Source: a virus
DNA length: 36,384 nucleotides
Reading direction: 5' to 3' (one strand)
IMG/VR virus record: IMGVR_UViG_3300021424_001706
Coordinates: 1 to 36,384 of that record
The notes beneath the pieces are model-generated. The model made no database searches. It was not told where the DNA came from and saw only the letters and a list, made by a program, of their open reading frames with translations. This document shows, in pieces, positions 1 to 21,285 of this stretch (position 1 is the first letter of the stretch; every line of letters starts with the position of its first letter). The translations under genes were made by a program, and so were the position numbers.

Positions 1-2
1 CA

Positions 3-566
3 GAGGCTTTTGAACAAGTGCTAGATACATTGTTGATTGACCGAGCAACTGATCCCAACAGTAAAGGCACAGCAAGACGTCTTGCCAAAATGTATTACTA
101 TGAATTGATGGCAGGTAGATATGATCCTACACCCAACGCAACTGCATTTCCAAATGACACTGATGGGGCATACGACGGAATGCTTGTAGTTCGAAGCGAA
201 CTTAAAAGTGTTTGTAGCCATCATCATCAACCTGTGTCGGGTGTTGCTTATATTGGTATTATTGCTGGACCCAAACTCATTGGTCTCTCGAAGTACACGC
301 GAATTGCACAATGGTGTGCGCGGCGCGGCACACTTCAAGAAGAACTATGTATGGATATCGCCAGAGAAATTGAGTTTGCAACTGGAAGTAAGGATGTGGC
401 AGTTTATATACAAGCCACGCACGGTTGCTGCGAGAATAGAGGCATTATGGCACATAGCAGTCTTACCCAAACAACAGTGTTGAGAGGCGCATTCAAAGAC
501 GATGCTGCAACCAAAAAAGAATTTTTTGACAACGTTAAACTACAACAAGAATTTGCTCCCAGATAG
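3..566 (+). CDS. folE: GTP cyclohydrolase I, 5'-truncated by window edge
   Basis: Converts GTP to dihydroneopterin triphosphate, the first step of both folate and 7-deazaguanine synthesis. The zinc/active-site pattern is visible as CSHH (family form CEHH), followed by the LIGLSKYTRI segment and then THGCCENRG (family form THxCMxxRG), which supplies the third ligand Cys. A GTG at 18 could start a 182-residue protein, but the frame stays open to base 3 and those residues (EAFEQVLDTLL) fit the helix that precedes the family's RxAKMY motif, so I infer that the true start lies outside the window. QueD and QueE downstream argue that the product feeds 7-deazaguanine synthesis rather than folate. The family call is secure. 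Confidence 0.93.
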   Translation, partial: EAFEQVLDTLLIDRATDPNSKGTARRLAKMYYYELMAGRYDPTPNATAFPNDTDGAYDGMLVVRSELKSVCSHHHQPVSGVAYIGIIAGPKLIGLSKYTRIAQWCARRGTLQEELCMDIAREIEFATGSKDVAVYIQATHGCCENRGIMAHSSLTQTTVLRGAFKDDAATKKEFFDNVKLQQEFAPR

Positions 567-580
567 CGTTAAATACGCTA
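564..580 (+). promoter_or_regulatory. perfect inverted repeat at the folE stop, before the next gene's RBS
   Basis: TAGCGT and ACGCTA are exact reverse complements around a TAAAT loop. The first arm contains the folE stop codon. AAAAGGAG, the ribosome binding site of the next gene, follows directly. It could be an operator or an intercistronic mRNA hairpin; there is no U-tract to make it a terminator. Similar elements sit before other genes at 2111, 8315 and 13094. Confidence 0.4.
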
Positions 581-593
581 AAAGGAGCCCGTC

Positions 594-821
594 ATGTCTG
601 ATGAAGAAAAAGATGTCAAAGCTGAACTCAAGAAATTCAAACCAAAAAAACCAAAAATTACAGTACCTGAAGAATTTCTTGACAACGCAAAAAGTTACGA
701 AGACAAGTTGATGTTGGTAAAGTTTCTCTCTGAAAAGGAGAAAAATAGAGTGGTATTAATTTTTAAAAAAATGATAGCACAAGGCATGAAAGAAGATAAA
801 CTCAAGAAAGGATTAAAATGA
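594..821 (+). CDS. small charged protein, unknown function
   Basis: A 75-residue, Lys/Glu-rich protein with no recognised domain. The start ATG has a good Shine-Dalgarno sequence (AAAGGAG) about 7 bases upstream. It has a Pro/Lys-rich N-terminal third (KPKKPKITVP) and a helical C-terminal part ending in KEDKLKKGLK. Its stop overlaps the next start in an ATGA arrangement, so the two are translationally coupled between folE and the phosphoribosyltransferase. A role in the 7-deazaguanine block is only suggested by position. Confidence 0.7.
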   Translation: MSDEEKDVKAELKKFKPKKPKITVPEEFLDNAKSYEDKLMLVKFLSEKEKNRVVLIFKKMIAQGMKEDKLKKGLK

Positions 822-1006
822 AAATCGAAGACAAATTAAACAAAATCAACGACAGCTTTACTGACAGCATGTATGACAACGGTTTCATGTTTGAAGCTGG
901 TGGTCGCACCGAAGATGGCGATTGGGCCAATGCAAAAATTTTGTGTAACACCTTGGATGAATTGGTAGCACTTATCAAAGAAGCTTCACTTATGGAAAGA
1001 GACTGA
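818..1006 (+). CDS. small acidic protein, unknown function
   Basis: A 62-residue protein, not recognised. It overlaps the previous gene by four bases and its terminal TGA shares one base with the ATG of the phosphoribosyltransferase (TGATG), so it sits inside a coupled chain. AAGGA precedes the start. It contains a Gly/Asp-rich middle (EAGGRTEDGDWANAK) followed by a predicted helix (LDELVALIKEASLM). Compact position and RBS support that it is real; no function can be assigned. Confidence 0.7.
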   Translation: MKIEDKLNKINDSFTDSMYDNGFMFEAGGRTEDGDWANAKILCNTLDELVALIKEASLMERD

Positions 1007-1554
1007 TGAAACAACTAATTATTTCAGATTCTGAATTCAAAGGTTTGGTCAACAAACTGTGCAGAGATATTGCAAATAGTAATTGGCGTCCAGATTATGT
1101 AGTTGGTATAACTCGGGGCGGATTGCAACCTGCTGTAATGATCAGTCATTACTTTGGTGTTCCTTGTGAAACACTTAAAGTGAGCTTGCGTGACGGTGGG
1201 GAATCTGAAAGTAATTTATGGATGGCCGAACAGGCATTTGGTTATGTGCCCAAAGACGAACGTGGTTCAGGTGATGCAGACACTGATCCTGCTTATCGAA
1301 AAAAAATATTGATAGTGGATGACATCAATGACTCAGGTGCTACACTAGAATGGATTAGACAAGATTGGCAGAGCAGTTGCTTGCCCAATCATCCTGCATG
1401 GTCGGCAATCTGGAACCGTAATGTAAGATTCGCAGTTGTTGTAAACAATGAAGCCAGCAGCTACGAAGGTATTAGCTATAGCGGTCGCAACATAAACAAA
1501 CTCGATGATCCTTGTTGGGTTGTTTTTCCTTGGGAAACGTGGTGGGCTCAATGA
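1006..1554 (+). CDS. type I phosphoribosyltransferase (purine PRTase-like)
   Basis: Predicted to transfer a ribose 5-phosphate from PRPP to a base. The PRPP-binding loop is clear at about residues 100-113 (ILIVDDINDSGAT), with two acidic residues and the SGAT turn. The N-terminal part, RPDYVVGITRGGLQP followed by a hydrophobic strand, and the C-terminal WVVFPWE match the hypoxanthine/xanthine-guanine PRTase branch. At 182 residues it is of normal length. Lying between FolE and QueD/QueE, it might act on a deazapurine base instead of, or as well as, guanine or xanthine; that is inference. Alternatives are host purine salvage or a pyrimidine PRTase, which I judge less likely. Confidence 0.85.
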   Translation: MKQLIISDSEFKGLVNKLCRDIANSNWRPDYVVGITRGGLQPAVMISHYFGVPCETLKVSLRDGGESESNLWMAEQAFGYVPKDERGSGDADTDPAYRKKILIVDDINDSGATLEWIRQDWQSSCLPNHPAWSAIWNRNVRFAVVVNNEASSYEGISYSGRNINKLDDPCWVVFPWETWWAQ

Positions 1555-1835
1555 TAGCTTTACCACCAGGTTGCACAGTAACGTATGCGGTCTGGATTGA
1601 TGTAGACGAACTCACTGATGATATGATAGAGTGGTACAAGATGATTGACGGCACTGTAATTGAATCTAAATTTTGGGACAGTCGTGGTCGAGAACAAATT
1701 GTGAAATATGTTAGTTACGGCAAGGCAAAACGTTGTCATCATCACCAAAATGGCACAGGCGGTACTAGACTTCACTTTCACGGGGATGATGCTAGTACTG
1801 CCAGTATGTTACTGCCAACAATATTCAAACTGTAA
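1551..1835 (+). CDS. small His-rich protein, unknown function
   Basis: A 94-residue protein. I chose the ATG at 1551 because it overlaps the PRTase stop as ATGA; an upstream ATG at 1512 would add 13 residues entirely inside the PRTase gene. The C-terminal half has a His cluster (CHHHQNGTGGTRLHFHGDD) that could bind metal, and the N-terminal half reads as short strands (TVTYAVWIDVDEL). I do not recognise a family. Coupling to the PRTase suggests a joint role. Confidence 0.65.
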   Translation: MIALPPGCTVTYAVWIDVDELTDDMIEWYKMIDGTVIESKFWDSRGREQIVKYVSYGKAKRCHHHQNGTGGTRLHFHGDDASTASMLLPTIFKL

Positions 1836-1862
1836 TGGAAAGACATGCCTGGGAAACTGTAG

Positions 1863-1870
1863 TATAAATA
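1863..1870 (+). promoter_or_regulatory. possible T4-type late promoter (TATAAATA)
   Basis: Exact match to the T4 late promoter core TATAAATA. It lies only six bases before the proposed ATG at 1876, too close for a normal leader on that start, so either the next in-frame ATG (1894) is used, the promoter serves queD further on, or the match is chance in AT-rich DNA. Confidence 0.25.
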
Positions 1871-1875
1871 TTTTT

Positions 1876-2055
1876 ATGTGGACTCTAATAATTATGTTGC
1901 ATGCAATTAATCCAAATGTGCCATCATCTCGAGGTTCTATAAGTTTTCCAACTCAAAATTTTGAAGAATGCGAAAAGACAAGAGATTATGTTCGTCAAGC
2001 CTGGAAATCAGATAGATACAGAGTTTCAGCTAACTGCATATACATTAATAAATAA
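1876..2055 (+). CDS. small membrane-associated protein, unknown function
   Basis: A 59-residue protein starting MWTLIIMLHAINPNV, a short hydrophobic segment that may be a membrane anchor or signal. The remainder (FEECEKTRDYVRQAW, then a Cys near the end) resembles small phage proteins with a conserved Cys-containing helix. An open frame extends back to 1708 but overlaps the preceding gene and has no good start there. Start choice is uncertain between 1876 and 1894, and no clear Shine-Dalgarno sequence is present. Confidence 0.5.
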   Translation: MWTLIIMLHAINPNVPSSRGSISFPTQNFEECEKTRDYVRQAWKSDRYRVSANCIYINK

Positions 2056-2110
2056 AACTTTACACAGCGGCCTTCCTGGCTCTTCATCCCGCTTTACAAA
2101 TTCTGCAGGC

Positions 2111-2131
2111 CTATGCTAAAATTTAACATAG
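2111..2131 (+). promoter_or_regulatory. near-perfect 21-bp palindrome overlapping the queD ribosome binding site
   Basis: Outer arms CTATG and CATAG and inner arms TAAA and TTTA are reverse complements, broken only by a C/A mismatch pair and a central A. The right end overlaps the AGGAG of queD (2130-2134). This could be a repressor operator or an RNA hairpin that limits queD translation. The 86-base gap before queD (2056-2141) is one of the longest in the window, and I see no other clear element in it. Confidence 0.45.
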
Positions 2132-2141
2132 GAGAATTAAA

Positions 2142-2666
2142 TTGGCACAATTTTACTCAACAAAAACTTATGGCAACGACCGAGGACTCAGCTGTTGCTT
2201 TAGACAATGGCGTGCCACACACAGCCATTGTTCAACGCTACACGGTTATTCAATTGGCATTCGGCTGGTATTTGAATGTGATACACTAGACGATAAAAAC
2301 TGGTGCATGGACTTTGGAGGTCTCAAAGAATTCAAGTCATGGGCCGACTACATGTTTGATCATACTCTAATTGTGGCCGAAGATGATCCTCACCTAGATT
2401 TTTTTGTACGAATGAGTCATCAGGGCAACATGCCTATGTCTGGTACCGGAAGTTTAGAACAAGTTAAACCATACGAACGAGGTGCATTGTGTGATCTACG
2501 CATTGTTCCGGGTGTAGGGTGCGAAATGTTTGCCAAGATGTGCTATGACAAAATGAGTGAACTGTTAGCCGGTGACGCTTTGCGTTATCCAATCAATCCA
2601 ACTGTGCGTATAAAAAGTGTAGAAGTATTTGAGCACGGTGCTAACAGTGCAACCTACCAAGGATAA
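2142..2666 (+). CDS. queD: 6-carboxy-5,6,7,8-tetrahydropterin synthase (QueD/PTPS family)
   Basis: Converts 7,8-dihydroneopterin triphosphate to 6-carboxytetrahydropterin, the second step to preQ0. Visible: catalytic Cys30 in the C-x3-H-G-x motif (CSTLHGY), upstream His27/His29, the CMDFGGLKEF segment, Asp73-His74 (FDH), and near the C-terminus V-x-E-x5-A-x-Y with Glu164 (VFEHGANSATY). The second His of the usual HGH is Tyr36, so one zinc ligand appears replaced. At 174 residues it is longer than E. coli QueD, mainly through an insert around residues 84-125. The start is TTG at 2142, chosen for its AGGAG 7 bases upstream; no ATG lies near. It is followed by queE after two bases. Confidence 0.87.
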   Translation: MAQFYSTKTYGNDRGLSCCFRQWRATHSHCSTLHGYSIGIRLVFECDTLDDKNWCMDFGGLKEFKSWADYMFDHTLIVAEDDPHLDFFVRMSHQGNMPMSGTGSLEQVKPYERGALCDLRIVPGVGCEMFAKMCYDKMSELLAGDALRYPINPTVRIKSVEVFEHGANSATYQG

Positions 2667-2668
2667 TC

Positions 2669-3517
2669 ATGAGTAAAATCAAAGTAGCTGAACTATTTTA
2701 TTCAATCCAAGGCGAAGGCAGATACATGGGTGTGCCTAGTGTCTTTCTTCGCACATTTGGTTGCAACTTTAAATGTGCAGGATTCGGTATGCCTAGAGGA
2801 AAACTAAGTAGAGAAGTAGAAGATATAGCAGCAAGAGTGCATTATTACAACAAATACGATGATTTACCTTTGGTAAGTACAGGCTGTGACAGTTATGCAA
2901 GCTGGGATCCAAGATTCAAAGATCTTAGTCCTATGCTAACCAGTGATGCAATTGTGGAACAAATTATGGAAATTCTTCCACATAGCAAGTGGAAGGACGA
3001 ACATCTTGTTATTACAGGTGGCGAGCCTCTACTAGGTTGGCAGCGTAGTTACGAAGATCTGCTGAATCATCCTCGTATGCAAAAGTTAAAAGAAATTACT
3101 TTTGAAACTAACGGTACTCAAGAGCTAACCAAAGAGTTCAAACATTATCTAGGCGAATGGACTGCTGCGTCTCGAGATAGAGAAGTTACATTCAGTGTAA
3201 GCGCAAAACTACCTGTCAGTGGAGAGTCATGGGAAGATGCAATCAAACCCAACATTGTGTGCGATTATGCCACTGTTGGTTACACCTATCTCAAGTTTGT
3301 TGTGGCAACCGAAGAAGATGTCACAGATGCTTTAAAAGCCACAGAGCAGTATCGTAATGCAGGATTTAAAGGATCAATTTATCTTATGCCAGTAGGAGGT
3401 ATTGAAAGTGTATATACTTTAAATAACCGCAACGTTGCACTGTTAGCAATGAAACATGGTTTACGATACAGCGATAGACTTCAAGTACCGTTATTTAAAA
3501 ACGAATGGGGAACTTGA
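2669..3517 (+). CDS. queE: 7-carboxy-7-deazaguanine synthase (QueE), radical SAM
   Basis: Radical SAM enzyme converting 6-carboxytetrahydropterin to 7-carboxy-7-deazaguanine (CDG). The N-terminus has the family signature FYSIQGEGRYMGVPSVFLRT, then GCNFKC and, far downstream, TGCDSYASWDP; GGEP at residues 117-120 binds SAM and FETNGT follows. The three cluster cysteines therefore appear to be C32, C36 and C73, with a long insert before the third instead of the standard CX3CX2C. This spacing resembles the phage/cyanobacterial-type QueE as I know it and is probably functional. At 282 residues it is somewhat longer than bacterial QueE (about 220). QueC was not seen in the window and could lie upstream of folE. 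Confidence 0.9.
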   Translation: MSKIKVAELFYSIQGEGRYMGVPSVFLRTFGCNFKCAGFGMPRGKLSREVEDIAARVHYYNKYDDLPLVSTGCDSYASWDPRFKDLSPMLTSDAIVEQIMEILPHSKWKDEHLVITGGEPLLGWQRSYEDLLNHPRMQKLKEITFETNGTQELTKEFKHYLGEWTAASRDREVTFSVSAKLPVSGESWEDAIKPNIVCDYATVGYTYLKFVVATEEDVTDALKATEQYRNAGFKGSIYLMPVGGIESVYTLNNRNVALLAMKHGLRYSDRLQVPLFKNEWGT

Positions 3518-3729
3518 TGACTAAAAATGATATAAACTTTTATTATTGTAAGTCAAGATTTTCTTGTGTTTGGTCTATTCGAATAAACAAAAGGGTAATA
3601 ACTGTAAGGCTAGATAAAACAGCAAGATTTTGGCGTCCTTCCTTTGTAACCTATAGGTTAGAATATTTAGATTTAACTGCACTTTATTACGAATCAGGGT
3701 TATTAAGATATGAACGAAACGAAAACTAG
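3517..3729 (+). CDS. small basic protein, unknown function
   Basis: A 70-residue protein, taken from the ATG at 3517, which overlaps the queE stop by one base (TGATG); an ATG at 3505 would add four residues within queE. It is rich in Arg, Tyr and Phe (YYCKSRFSCVWSIRINK, then VTYRLEYLDL) and looks like a small beta-rich fold. Not recognised. It overlaps the next gene by 20 bases, in keeping with a continuous transcript. Confidence 0.55.
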   Translation: MTKNDINFYYCKSRFSCVWSIRINKRVITVRLDKTARFWRPSFVTYRLEYLDLTALYYESGLLRYERNEN

Positions 3730-3919
3730 AACAATTACAAGAATGCTAACCTATAGAATTACGGCATGGCTATTTACAATTTTTTGGACTTGGTTGTTTA
3801 TTAGCGACGTCGGACGAAGTACTGGTTTTGCTACTGCATTACATGTTTTGTTAAGTATAGATTACTATATTCATGAACGTGTTTGGTTAAAAATTAAATG
3901 GGGAAAAGTAGATGTTTAA
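3710..3919 (+). CDS. DUF2061-type small membrane protein
   Basis: A 69-residue protein that fits the DUF2061 pattern: a basic N-terminus (ETKTRTITRMLTYR), a hydrophobic helix (ITAWLFTIFWTWLFI), a second helix (ATALHVLLSIDYYI) and the family's ending HERVWLKIKWG. Such proteins are predicted two-helix inner membrane proteins of unknown role and are common in marine T4-like phages. It overlaps its neighbours on both sides (20 and 8 bases). The family call is good; the function is unknown. Confidence 0.8.
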   Translation: MNETKTRTITRMLTYRITAWLFTIFWTWLFISDVGRSTGFATALHVLLSIDYYIHERVWLKIKWGKVDV

Positions 3920-4310
3920 TTGGATGAAAAAGAAAGCATCAAGTCAAGCAATAAACGATGAACCAAAAAAACCTGTAGGCAAACGTATAAAGTCGGCCAA
4001 AGAACAGGCCACCGAGGCAGGTGAGCCGTACATCAGTGTATTAAGCATAGAACTTGATGCAGATGATGTCGGGAACGGTTCGTTTGAACTTGACTGGAAC
4101 GAAGTATTTGTTGCTAGATTAGTAAAAGCTGGGTACATGCAGAAAAAGGATGATACCGATGCTGAGATTGTGGATAGATGGTTTCAGAGTGTGTGTCGCA
4201 ATATTCTAAACGAAAATTTTGAACAGTGGGAAGCAAATCAACCAGTTGATGCTAGACCAAGAAGAGTAGACCGCAATGATTTAGGAAATGGAAGAACAGA
4301 AATTTCATGA
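3912..4310 (+). CDS. conserved marine T4-like phage protein, unknown function
   Basis: A 132-residue protein with a charged, disordered N-terminal 35 residues rich in Lys and then a compact domain containing GSFELDWNEVFVARLVKAGY and IVDRWFQSVCRNIL. I recognise this domain from cyanophage and pelagiphage genomes (the 'FELDWN...W FQ..CRN' pattern), where it has no assigned function. It overlaps the gene before by 8 bases and the next by 4. No catalytic motif was seen. Confidence 0.75.
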   Translation: MFNWMKKKASSQAINDEPKKPVGKRIKSAKEQATEAGEPYISVLSIELDADDVGNGSFELDWNEVFVARLVKAGYMQKKDDTDAEIVDRWFQSVCRNILNENFEQWEANQPVDARPRRVDRNDLGNGRTEIS

Positions 4311-4993
4311 TTCTTTATGTAAATGGCGACAGTCACAGTGCCGGTGCAGAAGCCGTAAACAATTATTGCTTTGCCGAAGACGATCCATTTTACTATGCAC
4401 TAGGTCGTATTCCACATCCAGATAATGAACGTGTAAGTTATGGATGCATTATTGCTAATGATATATTTGCAATTTTACATTGCGACGCAGAATCGGCGAG
4501 TTCTAATACTAGAATTATAAGAACAACAAAACAATATCTCGAAAATCACAAACCAGATGCAATAATTATTGGATGGAGTACATGGGAGAGAGAAGAGTGG
4601 TTGCATGATGATGTGTATTGGCAAATTAATGGTGGTGGTATAGGCAATGATTGGCCTGATCCAATAAAAGAACGTTATAAAAATTATATAATTAATTTAG
4701 ACTGGTCCGTGGTTACTTCTAAAGCACACAATGAAATTTACAACTTTCATACCCAGCTATTAGATTTGAAAATTCCTCATTTATTTTTCAATACCTTTAA
4801 TCATTTTAATGACCAATTAAAAAAAGATTGGCATCATTGTTTTATTGATCCATATGATCCAAATCTGACTTATTGGAAATGGCTCACCGACAGTGGTTTT
4901 ACATCAAATTCGTCATATCATTTTGGTCCTGCTGCTCATAGGAAATGGGCTGAATTTTTAACACCTTATCTAAAAAAACTATTACGAATTTAA
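4307..4993 (+). CDS. SGNH/GDSL hydrolase-like protein
   Basis: A 228-residue protein with the SGNH block I motif NGDSHSAG at residues 6-13 (nucleophile Ser9). The middle strand reads IIIGWSTWEREEW, the W-[ST]-x3-R-E motif shared with the other SGNH-like proteins of this window. The C-terminal block is YHFGPAAHRKWA, where His is present but the Asp of the usual DxxH is replaced by Ser. It could be an esterase or O-acyltransferase on glycans; the missing Asp makes activity uncertain. It overlaps the upstream gene by 4 bases. Base composition is more AT-rich than that of the preceding genes. Confidence 0.72.
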   Translation: MILYVNGDSHSAGAEAVNNYCFAEDDPFYYALGRIPHPDNERVSYGCIIANDIFAILHCDAESASSNTRIIRTTKQYLENHKPDAIIIGWSTWEREEWLHDDVYWQINGGGIGNDWPDPIKERYKNYIINLDWSVVTSKAHNEIYNFHTQLLDLKIPHLFFNTFNHFNDQLKKDWHHCFIDPYDPNLTYWKWLTDSGFTSNSSYHFGPAAHRKWAEFLTPYLKKLLRI

Positions 4994-5013
4994 ATTTTTG
5001 GCAATCAAAAATA

Positions 5014-5211
5014 ATGCCATACAGCTGGTATCAAAAAAATAATTTAGAACATTGGTCTGGAACCGATCAACCCGAAAACGTAGATACAAATTGGTCAGTA
5101 CCTATATCTTACAAATTTAATCCACAAGGAGATCTGGCTAGAGACAAAATACATAATGGGTTAAAATCTAATTTAAATTTGGCCAATTTGTTCTTGACTG
5201 GAGTACAATAA
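5014..5211 (+). CDS. small protein, unknown function
   Basis: A 65-residue protein rich in Asn, Trp and Asp (SWYQKNNLEHWSGTDQ). No domain recognised and no Shine-Dalgarno sequence is seen before the ATG, but it fills the gap between the SGNH-like gene and the RNase H gene exactly and has no alternative frame there. The composition looks like an extracellular or virion-associated short protein; that is a guess. Confidence 0.45.
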   Translation: MPYSWYQKNNLEHWSGTDQPENVDTNWSVPISYKFNPQGDLARDKIHNGLKSNLNLANLFLTGVQ

Positions 5212-5228
5212 TATGCTACTATTAACGC

Positions 5229-6218
5229 ATGAGATACCTAATTGTAGACACTGCAAACACATTCTTTCGTGCTCGCCATTCGGCTCACCGTCAGTCGGAC
5301 ACTTGGGATCGGCTAGGATTCGCTATTCATGTTACCCTTGGTTCGGTTAATAAGGCCTGGCGGGATCAGAAAGCCGATCATGTGGTATTCTGTTTGGAGG
5401 GACGGTCATGGCGAAAAGATTATTACGAGCCGTACAAAAAGAATCGTGCAGTCGCTCGTGCAGCCCTTACCAAAACCGAGCAGGAAGAGGACCGACTATT
5501 TTGGGAAGCGTTTGATAACCTTAAAACGTTCCTCACAGAAAAGACTAATTGCACAGTTCTTCAACATCCCAAACTTGAAGCAGATGATCTTATTGCAGGA
5601 TTCATCCACCAACACCCCAATGACCATCATGTTATTATATCCTCGGACACCGATTTCTACCAACTACTTGCGCCGAATGTCGAGCAATATAACGGTGTTG
5701 CCGATGAACTCCACACGCTGAACGGTATCCTTGACAAGAAAGGTAAACTGGTATTTGATAAAAAGACCAAAGCACCCAAAGTCATCCCTGACCCGGCGTG
5801 GATACTGTTTGAGAAGTGTATGCGGGGAGATCCAACAGATAATATCTTTTCCGCATACCCTGGTGTTAGGACGAAGGGTTCCAAAAACAAAGTTGGTCTC
5901 ACTGAAGCTTTTGCTGACCAACATAAAAAAGGATATGCTTGGAATAACCTTATGCTTCAGCGATGGACAGACCATAACGGTGTGGAACATCGAGTGTTAG
6001 ATGATTATGAACGCAATCGAGTGCTAGTGGATCTCTCAGCACAACCTGATGAAATTAAGGCTAAAATTACAGAAACAATTGCCGCTAATGCTGTCAAAAA
6101 AAATCGTCCAATGGTGGGCGCACAGTTTCTTAAGTTTTGCGGCAAGTATGAATTGAATAGATTAAGCGAACAAAGTCAATCGTTTGGTGAATTTCTTAGT
6201 GCAGAGTATCCCGAATGA
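5229..6218 (+). CDS. rnh: T4 RNase H-type 5'-3' exonuclease (FEN family)
   Basis: Removes RNA primers and 5' flaps during phage DNA replication. Metal-binding motifs appear in order: YLIVDTANTFFRAR with Asp7, the SWRKDYYEPYKKNR segment matching the T4 helical arch region, LEADDLIAGF (Asp pair), SSDTDFYQLL (Asp pair), and DPTDNIFSAYPGVRTKGSKNK, the helix-hairpin-helix DNA-binding loop. At 329 residues it is close to T4 RNase H (305). It overlaps the next gene by 4 bases. Codon use is visibly less AT-rich than in the SGNH-like gene two upstream. Confidence 0.9.
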   Translation: MRYLIVDTANTFFRARHSAHRQSDTWDRLGFAIHVTLGSVNKAWRDQKADHVVFCLEGRSWRKDYYEPYKKNRAVARAALTKTEQEEDRLFWEAFDNLKTFLTEKTNCTVLQHPKLEADDLIAGFIHQHPNDHHVIISSDTDFYQLLAPNVEQYNGVADELHTLNGILDKKGKLVFDKKTKAPKVIPDPAWILFEKCMRGDPTDNIFSAYPGVRTKGSKNKVGLTEAFADQHKKGYAWNNLMLQRWTDHNGVEHRVLDDYERNRVLVDLSAQPDEIKAKITETIAANAVKKNRPMVGAQFLKFCGKYELNRLSEQSQSFGEFLSAEYPE

Positions 6219-6589
6219 TCACATGGCTGATATTGGCATTGTTGTTTATTAAACATTTCTTAGCAGACTTTTGCTGGCAAAGTGATCGAATGCTCAAAGA
6301 CAAAGGACACTTTGGTCGATTGGGCGGATTACAACATGCCGGGCTTCACGGTGCTTTGAGTTATGTAATCTTGATGCATTTTTTGACTTTACAAGCTTCG
6401 GTCATGCTGGCTGTATTTGATGCTGTCGTACATTACTTCGTGGATATGGCACATCGTCGACTCACAGTGAGATGGTCCACTGATGCAGATGCTTTTTGGT
6501 TTTGGATTGGGGTTGATCAGCTGATTCATGCCATAACTTATCTGTTAATTGGTTTTATAGTCAGCGTTTTAATGATTGAATACATATGA
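6215..6589 (+). CDS. DUF3307-type integral membrane protein
   Basis: A 124-residue protein of the DUF3307 type: LLFIKHFLADFCWQSDRM near the N-terminus, HAGLHGALSYVILMHF, and the DAVVHYFVDMAHRR helix, all with conserved His/Asp in membrane segments, then a final helix (YLLIGFIVSVLMIEYI). About four hydrophobic helices are visible. Members occur in phages and bacteria without known function. It is coupled by ATGA overlaps to rnh upstream and to a 33-residue gene downstream. Confidence 0.8.
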   Translation: MITWLILALLFIKHFLADFCWQSDRMLKDKGHFGRLGGLQHAGLHGALSYVILMHFLTLQASVMLAVFDAVVHYFVDMAHRRLTVRWSTDADAFWFWIGVDQLIHAITYLLIGFIVSVLMIEYI

Positions 6590-6687
6590 TTAAAAATGAT
6601 GAAGGCACCCTGTACATGATTCACGAGGACGAAGATTTTGCCAAGCAGGTAGCGCAGGCCATCATGCTAGAGCAAATGAAACTATGA
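6586..6687 (+). CDS. 33-residue acidic protein
   Basis: A very short open frame from the ATG at 6586 to the TGA at 6687 that overlaps the stop of the DUF3307 gene and the start of the next gene by four bases each (ATGA at both ends). The product is acidic with a helical second half (DEDFAKQVAQAIMLEQ). The exact fit between two coupled genes is the main support. Function unknown. Confidence 0.6.
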   Translation: MIKNDEGTLYMIHEDEDFAKQVAQAIMLEQMKL

Positions 6688-6959
6688 GCAACTATACAAT
6701 GGCAGGACAGGTGGCACCTATTACAGCAACACAAATATCACAGATAGATTTAACCAGTTCATATGGCTTCGATAATAAAAAACTACCAAACAAAAAAATA
6801 TCATTTGATGTGCATACCGCCAATGGTGGTTATGTGATTAGAGTGGCAAGCGGAATTGGTATTGGAGATCAGGATAATTTATATGTAATTGGCGACAATC
6901 AAGATCTTGGCCAAGAACTTGGAAAAATTGTAACACATCACACATTAGCAAAAACATGA
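6684..6959 (+). CDS. small conserved phage protein, unknown function
   Basis: A 91-residue protein beginning MSNYTMAGQVAPIT, with a Gly-rich strand-forming core (NGGYVIRVASGIGIGDQD, then LYVIGD) and a C-terminal helix. I recall similar proteins in marine T4-like phages, without function. It overlaps both neighbours by four bases, in line with tight translational coupling. No catalytic residues can be named. Confidence 0.65.
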   Translation: MSNYTMAGQVAPITATQISQIDLTSSYGFDNKKLPNKKISFDVHTANGGYVIRVASGIGIGDQDNLYVIGDNQDLGQELGKIVTHHTLAKT

Positions 6960-7429
6960 CTGAACGAGTAGCCAAACCCGTAGTAAAAAATAAATTTTGG
7001 GTAGTAGAAGATCACGGTCAAAAGATTGCTACCATTCAGGCAAGAGAGGATGGTGGATTAGTTTATGTTCATGACGAACAAAGAGAATATTTCCCTAGTG
7101 TTAAAGTTTTAAAACAAAAATATAATATTAAATTTGGCTCGCCAGAACGTGTTAAAAAAGAAAATGCCAAAACTGTATATGGTTATCCTATAAACGGCAA
7201 AGCCTTCAATCAAGTATGGGATGTACATAGACGATTACCAATTTACAGTAAGACAGGCAAAAGTAAAAGTTTATACTGTGCAGGGTATTATGGCATTAAA
7301 CTAAATGGCATATGGACTGAATCATTTTGCCCTAAGAATATAACAATTTCAAGATATGAGTACGTTGGTCCTTTTTTGACCAAGCAACAAATGCAACACA
7401 CCTTACAGGATCTACAATGCAAAAACTAA
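6956..7429 (+). CDS. conserved marine T4-like phage protein, unknown function
   Basis: A 157-residue protein. The N-terminal third (FWVVEDHGQKIATI, then YVHDEQREYFPS) is beta-rich. The centre has VYGYPINGKAFNQVWDVHRRLPIYSKTGKSKSLYCAGYY in two short runs separated by a basic KTGKSKS loop, and the end has FCPKNITISRYEYVGPF. I recognise this pattern from cyanophage T4-like genomes, where it is a widely conserved protein of unknown function. Overlaps: 4 bases upstream and 13 downstream. Confidence 0.78.
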   Translation: MTERVAKPVVKNKFWVVEDHGQKIATIQAREDGGLVYVHDEQREYFPSVKVLKQKYNIKFGSPERVKKENAKTVYGYPINGKAFNQVWDVHRRLPIYSKTGKSKSLYCAGYYGIKLNGIWTESFCPKNITISRYEYVGPFLTKQQMQHTLQDLQCKN

Positions 7430-7626
7430 GTTTAGCAGTTAAAAATTTCAATGAGCGTGTTAAAGTCTTAAATCAAACTGGAAGCAAACAATTAACTCTA
7501 TCAGCCGAAGAAGCAAGAAATTTACACGCAGATATCTTTAATTTATTGGCTAACATTGCCGAACTTCAAACAAAATCAGAAACAACGCAAATACCAGCTA
7601 CTAACTTTGATGGAGGAGGTTTTTAA
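7417..7626 (+). CDS. small helical protein, unknown function
   Basis: A 69-residue protein consisting of two helices (SLAVKNFNERVKVLNQTG and LSAEEARNLHADIFNLLANI) and a flexible Gly-ending tail (FDGGGF). A tail of this kind occurs in several phage small proteins. Its start lies within the end of the previous gene. It is similar in layout to small proteins that follow the same neighbour in marine T4-like phages. Function unknown. Confidence 0.6.
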   Translation: MQKLSLAVKNFNERVKVLNQTGSKQLTLSAEEARNLHADIFNLLANIAELQTKSETTQIPATNFDGGGF

Positions 7627-7647
7627 CTTAAACTACCCAGAAAACTG

Positions 7648-7655
7648 CATAAATA
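7648..7655 (+). promoter_or_regulatory. possible T4-type late promoter (CATAAATA)
   Basis: CATAAATA fits the NATAAATA late-promoter form described for cyanophage T4-like viruses. It is 20 bases before the ATG at 7676, in a 49-base gap, which allows a short leader. No -35 match, as expected for a late promoter. The match is short and may be chance. Confidence 0.35.
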
Positions 7656-7675
7656 CATAGTTCAAGGATTACAAG

Positions 7676-7963
7676 ATGTCTAGACCTAAACCCACAGTAC
7701 TGTTAGAACATGTTAATAAATCTAACTACAAAAGCGATCAAGTTCTCAGCAGCGAAGGAATTTGGGCGGTATTCTACGACAACAAACCCATCAACTTAAA
7801 AAGTTCCAATATGTTGGTTGCTTACCCGGGTCCAAAATATAAGAAGGTTTCATTTAGCAACAGTGGACACGCTATCAATCTAGCAAAAAAACTTAACACC
7901 CTTTTCAAGACCGACAAATTCACTGTGGTCTTAATGAAACAAGGTGACCAAATCTACCCTTAA
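7676..7963 (+). CDS. conserved marine T4-like phage protein, unknown function
   Basis: A 95-residue basic protein with the recognisable sequence features SRPKPTVLLEHVN, EGIWAVFYDNKPINLK and YPGPKYKKVSFSN, followed by a helix (AINLAKKLNTLFKT). I know this pattern from cyanophage and related genomes as a conserved protein of unknown role. A 49-base gap with a late-promoter-like site precedes it. The next gene begins at a GTG inside its last 20 bases. Confidence 0.75.
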   Translation: MSRPKPTVLLEHVNKSNYKSDQVLSSEGIWAVFYDNKPINLKSSNMLVAYPGPKYKKVSFSNSGHAINLAKKLNTLFKTDKFTVVLMKQGDQIYP

Positions 7964-8309
7964 TCAAACTGACTATACCCGACAGTTTTTGACTCAAACG
8001 GGCCTAGACCATGCTAACTTTAATAGATATCACAAAACATGGTGGTGGAATCACACTGATCCCAAAAACTTGAGATTGAGCATGGACGGATTCAAGTTTG
8101 TCCAACTAAACAAAATACCCAAATACGAAATAGTACTGCCCCAACCTTTACGAAATCGCACTCTAATACAAATGAGCCGACTGCTCACTTGTCCTTATTA
8201 CATAAAAAAGTTGGATTGTGTCTATTTGCTTGGCGAACAAGAATCCGTATTACTTGCACTACATGCGGATAACTTGCAACAATACTTAGACAACCTTCAA
8301 ACACAGTAG
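7944..8309 (+). CDS. conserved marine T4-like phage protein, unknown function
   Basis: A 121-residue protein. The start is GTG at 7944, overlapping the previous gene by 20 bases; I chose it because no ATG is near and the homology pattern begins soon after (YTRQFLTQTGLDH). Features: LRLSMDGFKFVQ, YEIVLPQPLRNRTLIQMSRL and SVLLALHADNLQQYLDNL. This arrangement is familiar from marine T4-like phages, unannotated in function. A 56-base gap with an inverted repeat and promoter-like boxes follows. Confidence 0.72.
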   Translation: MTKSTLNQTDYTRQFLTQTGLDHANFNRYHKTWWWNHTDPKNLRLSMDGFKFVQLNKIPKYEIVLPQPLRNRTLIQMSRLLTCPYYIKKLDCVYLLGEQESVLLALHADNLQQYLDNLQTQ

Positions 8310-8310
8310 A

Positions 8311-8340
8311 TTGCGCTAAATTCACGTTTAGCATATACTG
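8311..8340 (+). promoter_or_regulatory. promoter-like boxes with inverted repeat
   Basis: TTGCGC at 8311-8316 and TATACT at 8335-8340 have an 18-base spacer, a weak sigma70-like match. Within it GCTAAA (8315-8320) and TTTAGC (8327-8332) form an exact inverted repeat around a six-base centre, in the place where a repressor could act. The gene at 8366 follows with GGGAGG as its RBS. Confidence 0.35.
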
Positions 8341-8365
8341 TATAGTCTTATACAAGGGAGGCTGT

Positions 8366-8716
8366 ATGCTAGCACAAAGTTACATTAGCAAATATGCAAC
8401 CAAAACTAGTAGCAAAGGTTTTAAAAGTCAATGGCACAAAATACCCGCAACAGAAAAATGGGTAGAATACATGCTAGATAAGCATGATGTTAACAAAATA
8501 CTAATGAATAGCGATTTTGCAACAAAAATGGACTTGTTAGAAGTTTTGCAAGTTCTAGAGCGTAAAATTGACTATATGTACAAGCATCCAAATTTTGAGT
8601 TCAATAAAGCAACATTCTTGTTTAACAGGCTCAAAACAGCAACGAAAGTTGCACCTTTAGTAACACCCAAAACTGTTGTAAAAACACAACAGAAAAAGAA
8701 ACTCAAAAAACGGTAG
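8366..8716 (+). CDS. small basic protein, unknown function
   Basis: A 116-residue protein with strong RBS (AGGGAGG). The N-terminal 90 residues form a helical domain (WVEYMLDKHDVNKILM, then LLEVLQVLERKIDYMY). The last 25 residues are a Lys/Thr/Val-rich tail ending QKKKLKKR, typical of an exposed, possibly nucleic-acid-binding extension. Not recognised. It is likely transcribed from the promoter-like boxes just upstream and is followed by a separate promoter for the next gene. Confidence 0.65.
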   Translation: MLAQSYISKYATKTSSKGFKSQWHKIPATEKWVEYMLDKHDVNKILMNSDFATKMDLLEVLQVLERKIDYMYKHPNFEFNKATFLFNRLKTATKVAPLVTPKTVVKTQQKKKLKKR

Positions 8717-15667: not shown

Positions 15668-16383
15668 TGCCAAGAAAAATTTATATCTTTGGCGATAGTT
15701 GGGGTGCCGGAGTATGGGAAAATCACAAAATAATTCACAAAGGTCTAGAATTCTTTCTAAGTAATTTAGGTTACACCGTTATAAATCTAAGTCGTCCGGC
15801 CAGTTCTAATCTTAATTTAGTACGTTTGTTAAGTAAAGAAATAGTTAATATAGACCGCAGTGACTTTATATTTTTTATAACTACAGACGCAACTAGAGAT
15901 ACATTTTTTACTAAAAATAGTCTCACTAAATGCCTACAAGAGAACCAAAGTCTATCAGGGTTAGTTGACATCTTACTAGATTCAACTTATAATATGCTTA
16001 ACAATCTATGCAAACAATTCAATAGGAAAATTTATATGATTGGAGCACTTAACAATTTAGATTACTCTATTTCTAATTATAATAATCTTATTCCTATAGT
16101 ATCTTCGTGGGTTAATATATTAGTAGGTCATTTTAATGAGTATAGTAACACAATAGATAACAAATTTAGAATATTATCAAATCCAAACTGCAGAATTGAA
16201 TTAGTTGATTTAAAATTGTTTAACGATCTACAGGCAAAGAATGTGATTGAAGATTTTTATTTGTATCAAGAAACGAATTCATTGGTATTTAGAGAAAGTG
16301 TCTTTTACCCAGATGGAGTGCATCCTAATCATAATGGACATAAAATTTTATTTAATCATATTCGAGAAAAATTAAACTTATGA
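15667..16383 (+). CDS. SGNH/GDSL hydrolase-like protein (classical catalytic residues)
   Basis: A 238-residue protein with the most complete SGNH set in the window: block I IFGDSWGAGV (Ser nucleophile), an Asn-rich SRPASSNLNLV block II, and YPDGVHPNHNGH, a regular DxxH catalytic pair. The central motif is IFFITTDATRDTFF, related to the W-[ST]-x3-R motif of its paralogues but lacking the Trp. Probably an esterase or O-acyltransferase; the substrate is unknown. It sits between DHFR and ThyA, overlapping both by one and four bases, an unusual place for such a gene. Confidence 0.82.
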   Translation: MPRKIYIFGDSWGAGVWENHKIIHKGLEFFLSNLGYTVINLSRPASSNLNLVRLLSKEIVNIDRSDFIFFITTDATRDTFFTKNSLTKCLQENQSLSGLVDILLDSTYNMLNNLCKQFNRKIYMIGALNNLDYSISNYNNLIPIVSSWVNILVGHFNEYSNTIDNKFRILSNPNCRIELVDLKLFNDLQAKNVIEDFYLYQETNSLVFRESVFYPDGVHPNHNGHKILFNHIREKLNL

Positions 16384-17294
16384 AAACATACCACAATGTT
16401 CTTAAAGATATATTAGAAACAGGAACACGCAAAGATGATCGCACGGGTGTAGGTACCATAAGCAAGTTTGGTATGCAGCAACGTTATGATTTAAGTCAAG
16501 GTTTTCCTGCTGTAACTACAAAAAAACTAGCATGGAATGCTGTGGTGGGCGAACTATTATGGATGATTGAAGGTTCAGGCGATGAACGTAGATTGGCTGA
16601 GATAACGCATGGCACACGGGATGGTACAGTAACTATATGGACGCCCAATGCACTAGCACCATATTGGCGATCGCGGGCCCAATTTGAAGGAGATCTAGGT
16701 CGTGTGTACGGAGTACAGTGGAGACATTGGCGTACTATCAAAGAACGCGAAACAGAAGGATCTTTCAAAGACGGGTTTGGAAGCACTTACCGAAGAGTAG
16801 GCAATAACGTTGAAATTAAAGAAGTCGATCAACTACGAAATTTAATCGACGGTATTAAGCAAGATCTGCACGGACGACGACACATATTAACTGCATGGAA
16901 TCCTGGAGAATTAGATCAAATGGCCCTGCCACCGTGTCATTGTTTTGCACAGTTTTATGTAGCAGATGGAAGATTGTCGTGCCAGATGTATCAGCGATCC
17001 TGCGATATGTTTTTGGGTGTACCTTTTAATATCGCCAGCTATTCGCTACTAACAGCAATGATTGCACAAGTGTGTGATTTGGATGTAGGAGAGTTTGTTC
17101 ACGTTCTAGGCGACGCACACATATACCTAGATCATGTAGAGCAAGTAAAAGAACAGTTGACACGTGAACCATTGCCTGCACCGCAATTGTGGCTCAATCC
17201 TGAGATAACTGATATTACAAAATTTACCATGTCTGATATTCGACTCGAAGGATATCAAAGCCATGGTGCTATCAAGGCCCGGATGGCTGTATGA
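16380..17294 (+). CDS. thyA: thymidylate synthase (ThyA type)
   Basis: Methylates dUMP to dTMP using methylenetetrahydrofolate. Catalytic Cys186 lies in LPPCHCFAQFY; the QRSCDMFLGVPFNIASY run carries Asn217, the residue that selects dUMP and that is Asp in dCMP hydroxymethylase, and DAHIYLDHVEQ completes the nucleotide pocket. The N-terminal RTGVGTISKFG and C-terminal LEGYQSHGAIKARMAV are typical. At 304 residues it is normal for the longer class. It is coupled by four bases to genes on both sides. A dUMP hydroxymethylase cannot be fully excluded from sequence alone. Confidence 0.93.
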   Translation: MKTYHNVLKDILETGTRKDDRTGVGTISKFGMQQRYDLSQGFPAVTTKKLAWNAVVGELLWMIEGSGDERRLAEITHGTRDGTVTIWTPNALAPYWRSRAQFEGDLGRVYGVQWRHWRTIKERETEGSFKDGFGSTYRRVGNNVEIKEVDQLRNLIDGIKQDLHGRRHILTAWNPGELDQMALPPCHCFAQFYVADGRLSCQMYQRSCDMFLGVPFNIASYSLLTAMIAQVCDLDVGEFVHVLGDAHIYLDHVEQVKEQLTREPLPAPQLWLNPEITDITKFTMSDIRLEGYQSHGAIKARMAV

Positions 17295-18594: not shown

Positions 18595-19223
18595 AACGTA
18601 TATTTGATATAGGAGATTTTCAGTTACATTATGAAGATGATGTTGACGGCGGCGGAACATCAATTGGATTAGATTTTAAAAATATTCTAAACACACACTA
18701 TGCTCATCGCGAATTCAAATGCTGCTTAGAATGGTGTTCGGGCCCTGGCTTTATTGGATTTGATTTATTATTAAACAATTACTGCAAAGAATTAACACTA
18801 GTAGATCAACATCAATCTGCTTTGAATTTTGCTACACATAGTTTATCATGTTATAATACTAATTTAAATGTTACCACTTATTGCACAGATAAAATTTCTA
18901 GTTTACCAATAACCAAAAAATTTGATCTGGTGGTGGCAAATCCTCCACACTTTTCTAAGCCAGTAAATTATCAAGAAATTGTGTTAAGAAACGATCCTAG
19001 AATTTATTTAGATCTAGATTGGGTTATACATAAAGAATTTTTTAACAACATTTCCAAACATCTAACCCCGGACGGTGTAATACTGTTACAAGAGAGTTCA
19101 TGGGGGTGTAACCGTGATACCTTTGATAAATTTTTAGTTAACTTACAACGAACTAATTGTTATCAAACCAATTCACCAGTTAACGATTATCCAATTTTTT
19201 ATATAGAATATAAATTACAATGA
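18591..19223 (+). CDS. class I SAM-dependent methyltransferase (NPPH motif)
   Basis: A 210-residue protein. The SAM-binding strand and loop read CLEWCSGPGFIGFDLL near residues 44-60, an acidic strand end follows (LTLVDQ), and NPPH at 117-120 (VVANPPHFSKP) matches the catalytic [DN]PP[YFH] of enzymes methylating amide or exocyclic nitrogen. It is closest in layout to PrmC/HemK-type or small N6-adenine methyltransferases; the target could be protein glutamine, a nucleic acid base, or a sugar/amine in the glycan pathway around it. Genome context (epimerase, aminotransferase) makes a small-molecule or glycan substrate possible. Coupled by four bases on both sides. Confidence 0.78.
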   Translation: MKRIFDIGDFQLHYEDDVDGGGTSIGLDFKNILNTHYAHREFKCCLEWCSGPGFIGFDLLLNNYCKELTLVDQHQSALNFATHSLSCYNTNLNVTTYCTDKISSLPITKKFDLVVANPPHFSKPVNYQEIVLRNDPRIYLDLDWVIHKEFFNNISKHLTPDGVILLQESSWGCNRDTFDKFLVNLQRTNCYQTNSPVNDYPIFYIEYKLQ

Positions 19224-20194
19224 AAGTTTTTATAACAGGTAGTGCGGGCTTTATTGGTCATAATGTAGTACAACAATTAGAAAAACATGGCATTGAATGT
19301 TTTGGAGTCGATAGTCGTACCAACTATGGATTCGTTCCACAAGACGAATTAGATTATTTGATACGAGAAAGATTATCAAGAATACGTGCAACACCGTTAG
19401 TTGGCGATATACGCAATGGTGATGATATTAAAAGTCGTGTTGGTGTTTTTGGCTGTGACACTATTATACATCTGGCTAGTTTTCCTAGACAAAAAGTTGT
19501 TGGTCGAAATCCTGTTGTAGCCAGTGAAGTGATGAGCACCGGATTGATTAATTTACTCGAAGCAGCAGCAACTCATCGAGTAAAACGTTTTGTTTATATT
19601 AGTTCTAGCATGGTATACGGCGACTTTGAAACAGATGTAACAGAAGATGCTGTATGCAATCCAATTGGCCAATATGGCATTATGAAATACATGGGCGAAA
19701 AACTGGTCGAAGATTATGCTCGTCAACACGGTTTTGAATCGGTAATTATTCGTCCTAGTGCAGTTTATGGCGAATGGGATGTAGAGGACCGTGTAGTATC
19801 AAAATTTATGCTAACAGCAATGAAAGGCGAAACTCTCAAAGTTAAAGGTGCCAATGAAGTATTAGATTTCACTTATGTCGAGGATGCTGCTTTGGGAATT
19901 GTTCAAGCAACCTGCAGTAAATATAGTGCAAATAAAATTTATAATATTACTCGAAGTGCAGAACGTCAATATACATTATGCGATGCAGCCGAGTTGGCAA
20001 TTGCAATAGCCGGCAAAGGCTCGATTGAAATACAAGATCGAGATTTGAATTTTCCTAAGCGAGGAAGACTTAATATCGATCGCGCCACACAAGATTTTGG
20101 TTATTCGCCTAGGGTCAACGTTGAAGAAGGATTCCAACGCTATTATGAATGGTTTCAACAATCAGATTATTGGCAGTCTAGATTATGCAAGTAA
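19220..20194 (+). CDS. NAD-dependent sugar epimerase/dehydratase (extended SDR)
   Basis: A 324-residue nucleotide-sugar modifying enzyme. The NAD-binding GSAGFIG is at residues 7-13, DIRNGDD and IIHLASFP follow, SSSMVYG supplies the catalytic Ser region, and Tyr152/Lys156 (YGIMK) complete the SDR pair. IRPSAVYGEWD and DFTYVEDAA are typical of GalE/RmlB relatives. The product of this step is probably a UDP- or dTDP-sugar, which the aminotransferase encoded next (10-base overlap) may aminate. Exact reaction (4-epimerase, 4,6-dehydratase or other) cannot be told. Confidence 0.88.
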   Translation: MKVFITGSAGFIGHNVVQQLEKHGIECFGVDSRTNYGFVPQDELDYLIRERLSRIRATPLVGDIRNGDDIKSRVGVFGCDTIIHLASFPRQKVVGRNPVVASEVMSTGLINLLEAAATHRVKRFVYISSSMVYGDFETDVTEDAVCNPIGQYGIMKYMGEKLVEDYARQHGFESVIIRPSAVYGEWDVEDRVVSKFMLTAMKGETLKVKGANEVLDFTYVEDAALGIVQATCSKYSANKIYNITRSAERQYTLCDAAELAIAIAGKGSIEIQDRDLNFPKRGRLNIDRATQDFGYSPRVNVEEGFQRYYEWFQQSDYWQSRLCK

Positions 20195-21285
20195 TTCCTT
20201 TTTTCGGAATTCATAGACAGTACCAAAATATTCGCGAAGAAATATTAGAAATAACAGATCGGGTGTACTCTACCGGTCGCGTCCTCGATGGCGCTTACAC
20301 AGAACACTTTGAAAATAAAATAGCAAAACGGTGTAACAGAGCATATGCATTAGCAGTCAATTCTGGAACACAAGCATTGATTTTTGCACAAATGGCCGCG
20401 GTGTCCAGACCGCCATATTCAATTTTAATTCCTACTGTGAGTTTTGTGGCTACTATCAATAGTGTGCTAATGAATAATTTTACTCCAGTGTTTTGTGATA
20501 TCGATCACAAAGGACTAATTGATCTTGATAGCTACGAATATAAGCTTGATCAAAGTGTTGGCGCTGTCATGTATGTTAATTTGTTTGGCAACTGTGTAGA
20601 CTGGGACAGGTTTCAAATGCAGACCAGATTCTTTAATGATGATTTAATTATTATCGAAGATGCTGCACAAAGTTTCGGAGCAAGTTATCAGGGCGTTCCT
20701 AGTGGAAAACTCGGCGATATCAGTGTTTTGAGTTTTGATCCAACTAAAAACTTGAACAATTACGGTAGCGGCGGAATGATTCTAACCGACGACTATCATA
20801 TATATGAGACATGTCGAACTCTCAGGGACAATGGTAAAAGTATCCACGACACTCCAGGAACCAATAGCAAAATGAGCGAAAGTGATTGTGCTCAAATGCT
20901 TATCAAATTACAACATTTTGATTCGTGGCAGAGGAGGCGCAAAGAGATAGCTGATTATTATATTAACGAATTATATCAATTTGTTGACATTTCGGTACCA
21001 AACAAGGGCGTCGAACATGCCTGGCACAAATTTGTAATTAGAACTAATAACAGGTCAGCTTTAATGGGTCATCTGGCCAGACAAGGAATAGAAACAAAAA
21101 TACATTATGAATCTGCTCTGTATGATTTAGGTGTAGGATTTAATTACATAGATTACGGAAAAGATTTATTCACAGAAACTGCTGCCTTTACTCGAGAATG
21201 TCTTAGCCTGCCTATCTATCCCGAACTTTTAGATAGCGAAGTTGAAACAATTGTAGAACAAATTAAATTTTATATAGATTCTTAA
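20185..21285 (+). CDS. DegT/DnrJ/EryC1/StrS-type PLP-dependent sugar aminotransferase
   Basis: A 366-residue aminotransferase. The PLP Lys188 sits in SFDPTKNLNNYGSGG, EDAAQSFGA holds the Asp that pairs with the pyridine nitrogen, and NSGTQALIFA binds the phosphate. LRDNGKSIHD and ESDCAQMLIKLQ, then the C-terminal WHKFVIRT, fit the sugar aminotransferase family (normally 370-400 residues). With the epimerase it suggests synthesis of an amino sugar nucleotide used by the glycosyltransferases on either side. It is the last + gene of this block and overlaps the convergent gene on the other strand by 23 bases. Confidence 0.9.
   Translation: MQVIPFFGIHRQYQNIREEILEITDRVYSTGRVLDGAYTEHFENKIAKRCNRAYALAVNSGTQALIFAQMAAVSRPPYSILIPTVSFVATINSVLMNNFTPVFCDIDHKGLIDLDSYEYKLDQSVGAVMYVNLFGNCVDWDRFQMQTRFFNDDLIIIEDAAQSFGASYQGVPSGKLGDISVLSFDPTKNLNNYGSGGMILTDDYHIYETCRTLRDNGKSIHDTPGTNSKMSESDCAQMLIKLQHFDSWQRRRKEIADYYINELYQFVDISVPNKGVEHAWHKFVIRTNNRSALMGHLARQGIETKIHYESALYDLGVGFNYIDYGKDLFTETAAFTRECLSLPIYPELLDSEVETIVEQIKFYIDS

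Follow-up and report, generated by a model that had tools for sequence, protein, structure and literature searches.

Why would a phage carry a purine phosphoribosyltransferase (PRTase) inside a block of 7-deazaguanine genes? The question is raised by IMG/VR record IMGVR_UViG_3300021424_001706, a fragment of 36,384 bases that opens inside folE and stems from a freshwater T4-like phage; this whole stretch of DNA is referred to here as the window. The combination of a folE-queD-queE block with an enzyme of the TGT superfamily in one phage is known from the DpdA-type systems of 9g, CAjan and nt-1 (PMC6884629) and exists here as well, but the T4-like family differs from those systems in that queC is mostly not found, the TGT-type enzyme measures about 515 amino acids (aa), and the gene set is extended by a PRTase and a His-rich protein. 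The original prediction held that the PRTase, acting with the polymerase, might stand in for DpdA, or else raise the GTP supply of FolE by salvage.

Gene Block and Its Conservation

The genes of the block are collected in Table 1, together with those of related loci; the complete folE of this phage is found at 3176-3868 of the overlapping contig L003. Between folE and queD the original prediction had placed a PRPP-dependent PRTase coupled to a small His-rich protein, and both statements hold. The PRTase matches PF00156 and its neighbors are matched as folE, queD and queE; the start codon of the His-rich reading frame (ATG at 1551) overlaps the PRTase stop as ATGA. Homologues of the His-rich protein occur in about 20 contigs and each of them adjoins the PRTase, some downstream and others upstream. 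This constant adjacency indicates that the reading frame is a real gene, and its persistence on either side argues for a functional pair formed by the PRTase and the His-rich protein. A Pfam search of the latter gave no match, and its AlphaFold model (pLDDT 79) had no significant match in the PDB and matched only an uncharacterized phage homologue in BFVD.

Table 1. Location of the genes of the block in the window and of TGT-type or TGT-like genes in related contigs and phages.
Feature	Position	Strand	Evidence and remarks
folE, GTP cyclohydrolase I	window 3..566	+	PF01227 4.8e-38; phrog_2197; 5' end cut off by contig start
Small conserved 75-aa protein, no assigned function	window 594..821	+	Many related loci have a homologue immediately 5' of the PRTase
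Small conserved 62-aa protein, no assigned function	window 818..1006	+	Overlaps PRTase start; homologues in 35 related loci
6-oxopurine-type phosphoribosyltransferase, 182 aa	window 1006..1554	+	PF00156 7.5e-12; phrog_8995 1.4e-10; PDB profile matches
His-rich 94-aa protein	window 1551..1835	+	ATGA overlap with PRTase; homologues in about 20 contigs
Small conserved 59-aa protein, no assigned function	window 1876..2055	+	Homologues in 11 loci
queD, 6-carboxytetrahydropterin synthase	window 2142..2666	+	PF01242 2.3e-15; phrog_2389 1.8e-36
queE, 7-carboxy-7-deazaguanine synthase (radical SAM)	window 2669..3517	+	phrog_2076 3.6e-52; NCBIfam QueE models
TGT-type family members	L220 6258-7808; L014 680-2257; G005 42206-43741
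Short (259-266 aa) TGT-like candidates	CP220 54660-55448; phiST 45603-46379; MaInes 57864-58661

A sequence resembling a T4-type late promoter, TATAAATA, lies at window 1863-1870, directly ahead of the gene for the 59-aa protein. Elsewhere the window encodes a thymidylate synthase (16380-17294) and a pair consisting of an epimerase and a DegT-type aminotransferase (19220-21285).

Relatives of the PRTase are encoded in 511 viral contigs. Among the best 81 of these 511 loci, queE is present in 77, folE in 66 and queD in 54, and the usual order among the loci examined is folE ... PRTase ... queE; the linkage of the PRTase with these genes is far beyond chance. One relative (MT835497, titled 'Bacteriophage sp.') was set aside, as it is GC-rich and no que gene was detected around its PRTase; the record resembles a bacterial chromosome. 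Other features recur near the que genes. About 29 related loci encode a HIT-domain protein (PF01230) close to queD and queE (e.g., L066 7357-7791), and queD-like genes are paired side by side in L046, L057, L066, L069 and L071, where the second copy may differ in function. A small conserved family also accompanies the que genes in phiST (46841-47185), in BUCT-ZZ01 (66859-67218; phrog_17812) and in T4-like phages.

QueC (PF06508) scored above its cut-off in 2 of the 28 related records and was not found in the other 26; queries for queC also found none in five genomes read whole or nearly whole. Since queC is mostly not found, the phage pathway may stop at 7-carboxy-7-deazaguanine (CDG), unless the host provides QueC. 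Such an end point would suit a PRTase that acts on CDG itself. The precedent is TubE, a purine PRTase of the tubercidin cluster of Streptomyces tubercidicus, whose gene accompanies homologues of folE, queD and queE and which is specific for PRPP and CDG (PMC6112128). That context, with CDG available, is mirrored by the FolE, QueD and QueE homologues of the window block and by the rarity of QueC among its relatives. Because TubE makes the CDG nucleotide from PRPP and CDG (PMC6112128), formation of a deazapurine nucleotide by a PRTase is chemically plausible. In the phage, the CDG ribonucleotide would be turned into a modified dNTP for the phage polymerase, in parallel to or upstream of the TGT-type enzyme, and a modified-dGTP route of this kind was formerly proposed for Campylobacter phages (PMC6884629). 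The likeness of the phage PRTase to TubE considered here is one of gene context, and the published tub cluster differs from the phage block in adding TubD (a reductase), TubF (a UbiD-type decarboxylase), TubG (a Nudix protein) and TubH (a kinase), with no TGT (PMC6112128). We regard this route as rather unlikely, also in view of the enzymes described below.

Family and Base Pocket of the Phosphoribosyltransferase

The PRTase reading frame opens with ATG, and its PF00156 score (45.3 bits) stands well above the curated cut-off of 26.3. Conservation across the family extends to the PRPP motif ILIVDDINDSGAT, to the TRGG loop and to W..FPWE at the C terminus; the general form of the PRPP motif, DDxxD[ST]G, is present as IVDDINDSGAT with D105, D106 and D109 invariant. 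W171 is likewise invariant and aligns with the C-terminal base-stacking Trp of E. coli Gpt. A profile built from 25 family members matched in the PDB almost only purine PRTases, namely those of P. horikoshii and Sulfolobus and other 6-oxopurine PRTases, and the best NCBIfam score of the MaInes and phiST enzymes was to the xanthine PRTase model, below its cut-off. By family, as judged from these sequence features, the product of window 1006-1554 is a 6-oxopurine-type phosphoribosyltransferase.

The phage enzymes thus share the PF00156 fold, the PRPP motif, the RGG loop and the C-terminal Trp with E. coli Gpt and the archaeal purine PRTases (PDB 1vdm, 4z1o, 4trb), but the T4-like members differ from these in two respects. 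They have an invariant Asn148 in the place of the Lys of E. coli Gpt (K115) that binds the purine O6, and they contain two conserved insertions (residues ~63-98 and 121-138), which could shift specificity and are absent from the bacterial, Cellulophaga, Campylobacter and Synechococcus phage homologues. At the O6-Lys position BUCT-ZZ01 has Asn, phiST and MaInes have Lys, and CP220 has Arg. Asn148 was considered as a mark of a deazapurine pocket and rejected, as chromosomal homologues of Sphingomonadales and Bacteroidetes, outside any que context, have Asn there too. The base-pocket evidence on the substrate is therefore mixed.

Membership in the 6-oxopurine family would also agree with general purine salvage apart from any base exchange, in which guanine, xanthine or hypoxanthine from the breakdown of host nucleic acids would feed phage dGTP and GTP; genes for ribonucleotide reductase (RNR), dNMP kinase or thymidylate synthase in some PRTase phages point the same way. 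Salvage of this kind does not predict the steady placement of the PRTase with folE, queD and queE in several unrelated lineages, and we consider it improbable.

The window enzyme also matches phrog_8995 ('phosphoribosyl transferase', the Campylobacter CP220 group), as do the PRTases of Cellulophaga, Brevundimonas and Synechococcus phages, and the phages examined carry que genes. It shares little sequence identity with these members (27% with BUCT-ZZ01 in tblastn), and gene order and insertions differ as well. In a PRTase tree, the long branches of which support little except the T4-like cluster and the placement of BUCT-ZZ01, the latter groups with bacterial chromosomal PRTases and not with the T4-like ones (94/81). 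This grouping hints that ordinary purine PRTases have been recruited repeatedly by phages.

A Divergent TGT-Type Enzyme Upstream of the Window

Whether the PRTase could take the place of DpdA depends on the remainder of the genome, in which conventional searches were of little help. PF01702 (TGT) gave no match in 28 records, but it failed equally on the DpdA of six control phages and viruses, including 9g, CAjan, nt-1, HVTV-1 and Dp-1, and this null result was therefore discarded as evidence. HMMER and single-sequence hhalign with DpdA1 gave nothing useful among 1,125 proteins. Among the models of DpdA1 and DpdA2, phrog_887 and phrog_7068 found 9g, CAjan and Dp-1 only, phrog_10773 found nt-1 and BUCT-ZZ01, and none of the three matched in the T4-like contigs.

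A search for DSGG-type motifs, followed by clustering and fold prediction, exposed a family of ~510-540 aa that is encoded upstream of the PRTase. In its alignment, DSGG[FY]Q, LD.P, NVLQG, GW..GG, HFLGT and FDCASPF follow one another as the active-site motifs of TGTs do, and the motifs from DSGG[FY]Q to FDC are invariant or nearly so among 18 sequences; hhalign aligned the FDC region too, with a low probability of 12.6%. For the L014 member, the AlphaFold model (pLDDT 82, pTM 0.83) had TGTs as its top PDB matches in Foldseek (1q63 at 2.7e-7, 6yry and 1s38; probability 1.00), with a TM-score to the target of ~0.5. PHROGs and NCBIfam gave no match to the family. It is seen neither by PF01702 nor by NCBIfam or the DpdA1/DpdA2 PHROGs, a comparison that covers these two known DpdA types.

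The gene is also present in the phage under study. None was found within the 36,384 bases of the window, but contig L003 is 99.9% identical to window 1-8687, and contig L220 is 100% identical to L003 over 3,429 bases and to window 1-127. The TGT-type protein of L220 (~515 aa; profile E 2e-271) maps outside the window, about 5.3 kb beyond its left edge and 6.3 kb to the left of the PRTase. The family is encoded in 28 of the 39 PRTase contigs of the T4-like group; the remaining 11 are uninformative because each breaks off within 7.3 kb upstream of the PRTase, so that none of the 28 sufficiently long related contigs lacks the gene. Overall it occurs in at least 596 viral contigs. In G013 (67658-69090) two open frames share the gene between them, and in G007 (121890-123413) it has an in-frame TGA; these copies are either broken or the result of sequencing errors.

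From its predicted fold and its motifs, the upstream enzyme of the window's phage is assigned to the TGT/DpdA superfamily, and it presumably acts on DNA. A different target was nevertheless considered, namely that the que genes and the TGT-type enzyme modify host or phage tRNA and that the PRTase recycles the guanine released from it. The TGT fold would permit this, and Hutinet et al. suggest queuosine boosting for que phages without a recognized DpdA (PMC6884629). Exchange in tRNA, however, frees little guanine, from which a dedicated PRTase would gain little, and the zinc-binding Cys/His cluster of tRNA TGTs was not found in the invariant columns of the family, where C307 (of FDC) is the only invariant Cys. 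Phage TGT homologues for which experimental data exist act on DNA (PMC6884629), which also counts against a role in tRNA, and we give this explanation little credence.

Recurrence in Other Phage Lineages

GenBank relatives of the PRTase are found in Synechococcus phage BUCT-ZZ01, in Campylobacter phages of the CP220 type, in Cellulophaga phages of the phiST type, in the Brevundimonas phages MaInes and StAshley and in unannotated records; with deazaguanine genes, the PRTase recurs in four further lineages (BUCT-ZZ01, CP220, phiST and MaInes). A comparison of eight genomes found FolE, QueE and the PRTase as the que-related families present in all eight. Gene order varies, from queE-PRTase-x-queD-folE in BUCT-ZZ01 to queE ... 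DNA polymerase ... RNR beta - RNR alpha - dNMP kinase - folE - PRTase in MaInes; the phiST PRTase gene has a dNMP kinase gene as its neighbor and RNR close by, and folE, queE and queD are grouped elsewhere in the genome.

Each of these four lineages likely encodes a DpdA-type enzyme as well. The PRTase cluster of BUCT-ZZ01 includes a phrog_10773 protein, of the same family as nt-1 ORF390, which we identify as the putative DpdA2 of nt-1 because of its HVDSGGLQ motif and its position between folE and queC. The short candidates of CP220, phiST and MaInes display a TGT-like motif order with LDN, QG and hLLG/hFLG, and those of CP220 and MaInes have a 'PD.lGD'-like site. CP220 and phiST share the protein (259-263 aa; 1.8e-5), and the likeness of the MaInes member is weaker (0.026-0.056). 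The phiST and MaInes genes lie near que genes, and the CP220 member belongs to phrog_19058, which has no assigned function and is distinct from the TGT-type family of the T4-like phages. Judging from motifs and position, all three are probably DpdA-type enzymes.

These lineages bear on the polymerase route in both directions. In phiST and MaInes the PRTase has RNR and/or dNMP kinase as neighbors, as a supply of modified dNTP would suggest, and RNR is present in CP220, phiST, MaInes and BUCT-ZZ01. RNR was found, however, in 1 of 27 T4-like contigs only, and its adjacency was therefore rejected as proof of a nucleotide route. A TGT-type enzyme exists wherever this could be tested in the T4-like group, DpdA-like enzymes exist in the other PRTase phages, and CP220, a Campylobacter phage, has a candidate of its own. 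Because such enzymes are present in PRTase phages, a nucleotide route is not needed. Cui et al. (2023) reportedly found transglycosylases in every virus known to contain 7-deazaguanines. A CDG-specific enzyme like TubE could still provide a polymerase substrate beside base exchange, or a small-molecule nucleotide directed against the host, but we hold this to be doubtful.

Guanine Recycling as the Probable Function

The idea that the PRTase and the polymerase replace DpdA is not supported by the search of the rest of the genome, which revealed the divergent TGT/DpdA-type gene upstream of the window and in every informative relative. The converse dependence is also informative. Among 21 contigs chosen for the TGT-type enzyme, some of which are fragments so that the true fraction may be higher, the PRTase is present in 10; it is absent from the 149-kb contig G051, and was found in none of the five classical DpdA viruses 9g, CAjan, nt-1, HVTV-1 and Dp-1. 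No PRTase without a TGT-type enzyme was seen among the testable contigs. Because the TGT-type enzyme is commonly found without the PRTase and the reverse was not seen where testable, the PRTase fits the role of an accessory of base exchange. The other half of the original prediction, salvage that raises GTP for FolE, is compatible with these sequence data and leads in a sharper form.

In this form, which we consider somewhat better than an even chance, the PRTase would recycle guanine that base exchange sets free. By the established chemistry of TGT and of FolE, QueD and QueE, each modification liberates one guanine, and each new base costs one GTP. FolE, QueD and QueE would convert GTP to CDG, to be used directly or after the action of host QueC, and the upstream TGT/DpdA-type enzyme would exchange guanine in phage DNA for the deazaguanine base, with one free guanine resulting from each swap. 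The PRTase would couple this guanine with PRPP to form GMP, which kinases and ribonucleotide reductase would return to GTP for FolE and to dGTP. As one GTP is spent and one guanine freed per modification, the loop would balance, and the removal of guanine would take away the competing base and should thereby pull the exchange forward. The analysis shows the gene identities, the PRTase motifs, the co-occurrence, and the TGT fold and motifs of the upstream enzyme; we infer that DNA is the target, which base is used, that the PRTase acts on guanine and that the two reactions are coupled. The intact catalytic motifs of the PRTase and its profile matches to 6-oxopurine PRTases support recycling, as do its place directly after folE beside RNR and dNMP kinase genes in MaInes, its dNMP kinase and RNR neighbors in phiST and the hint at repeated recruitment of ordinary purine PRTases. 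Hosts usually own purine PRTases, which speaks against it, as do Asn148 in place of the O6-binding Lys, the two insertions and the CDG-specific precedent of TubE.

The DpdA-type deazaguanine system itself is known; the form described here has a divergent TGT-type enzyme, a PRTase and its His-rich partner. Numerous freshwater T4-like phages encode this divergent enzyme, which PF01702, NCBIfam and PHROGs do not see, and because such models miss it, counts of 'deazaguanine phages without DpdA' that depend on them will come out too high. If guanine recycling is true, phages that replace guanine would close a stoichiometric loop, in which the GTP spent on the new base is matched by guanine that comes back as GMP, and the PRTase may permit dense replacement of guanine in their DNA.
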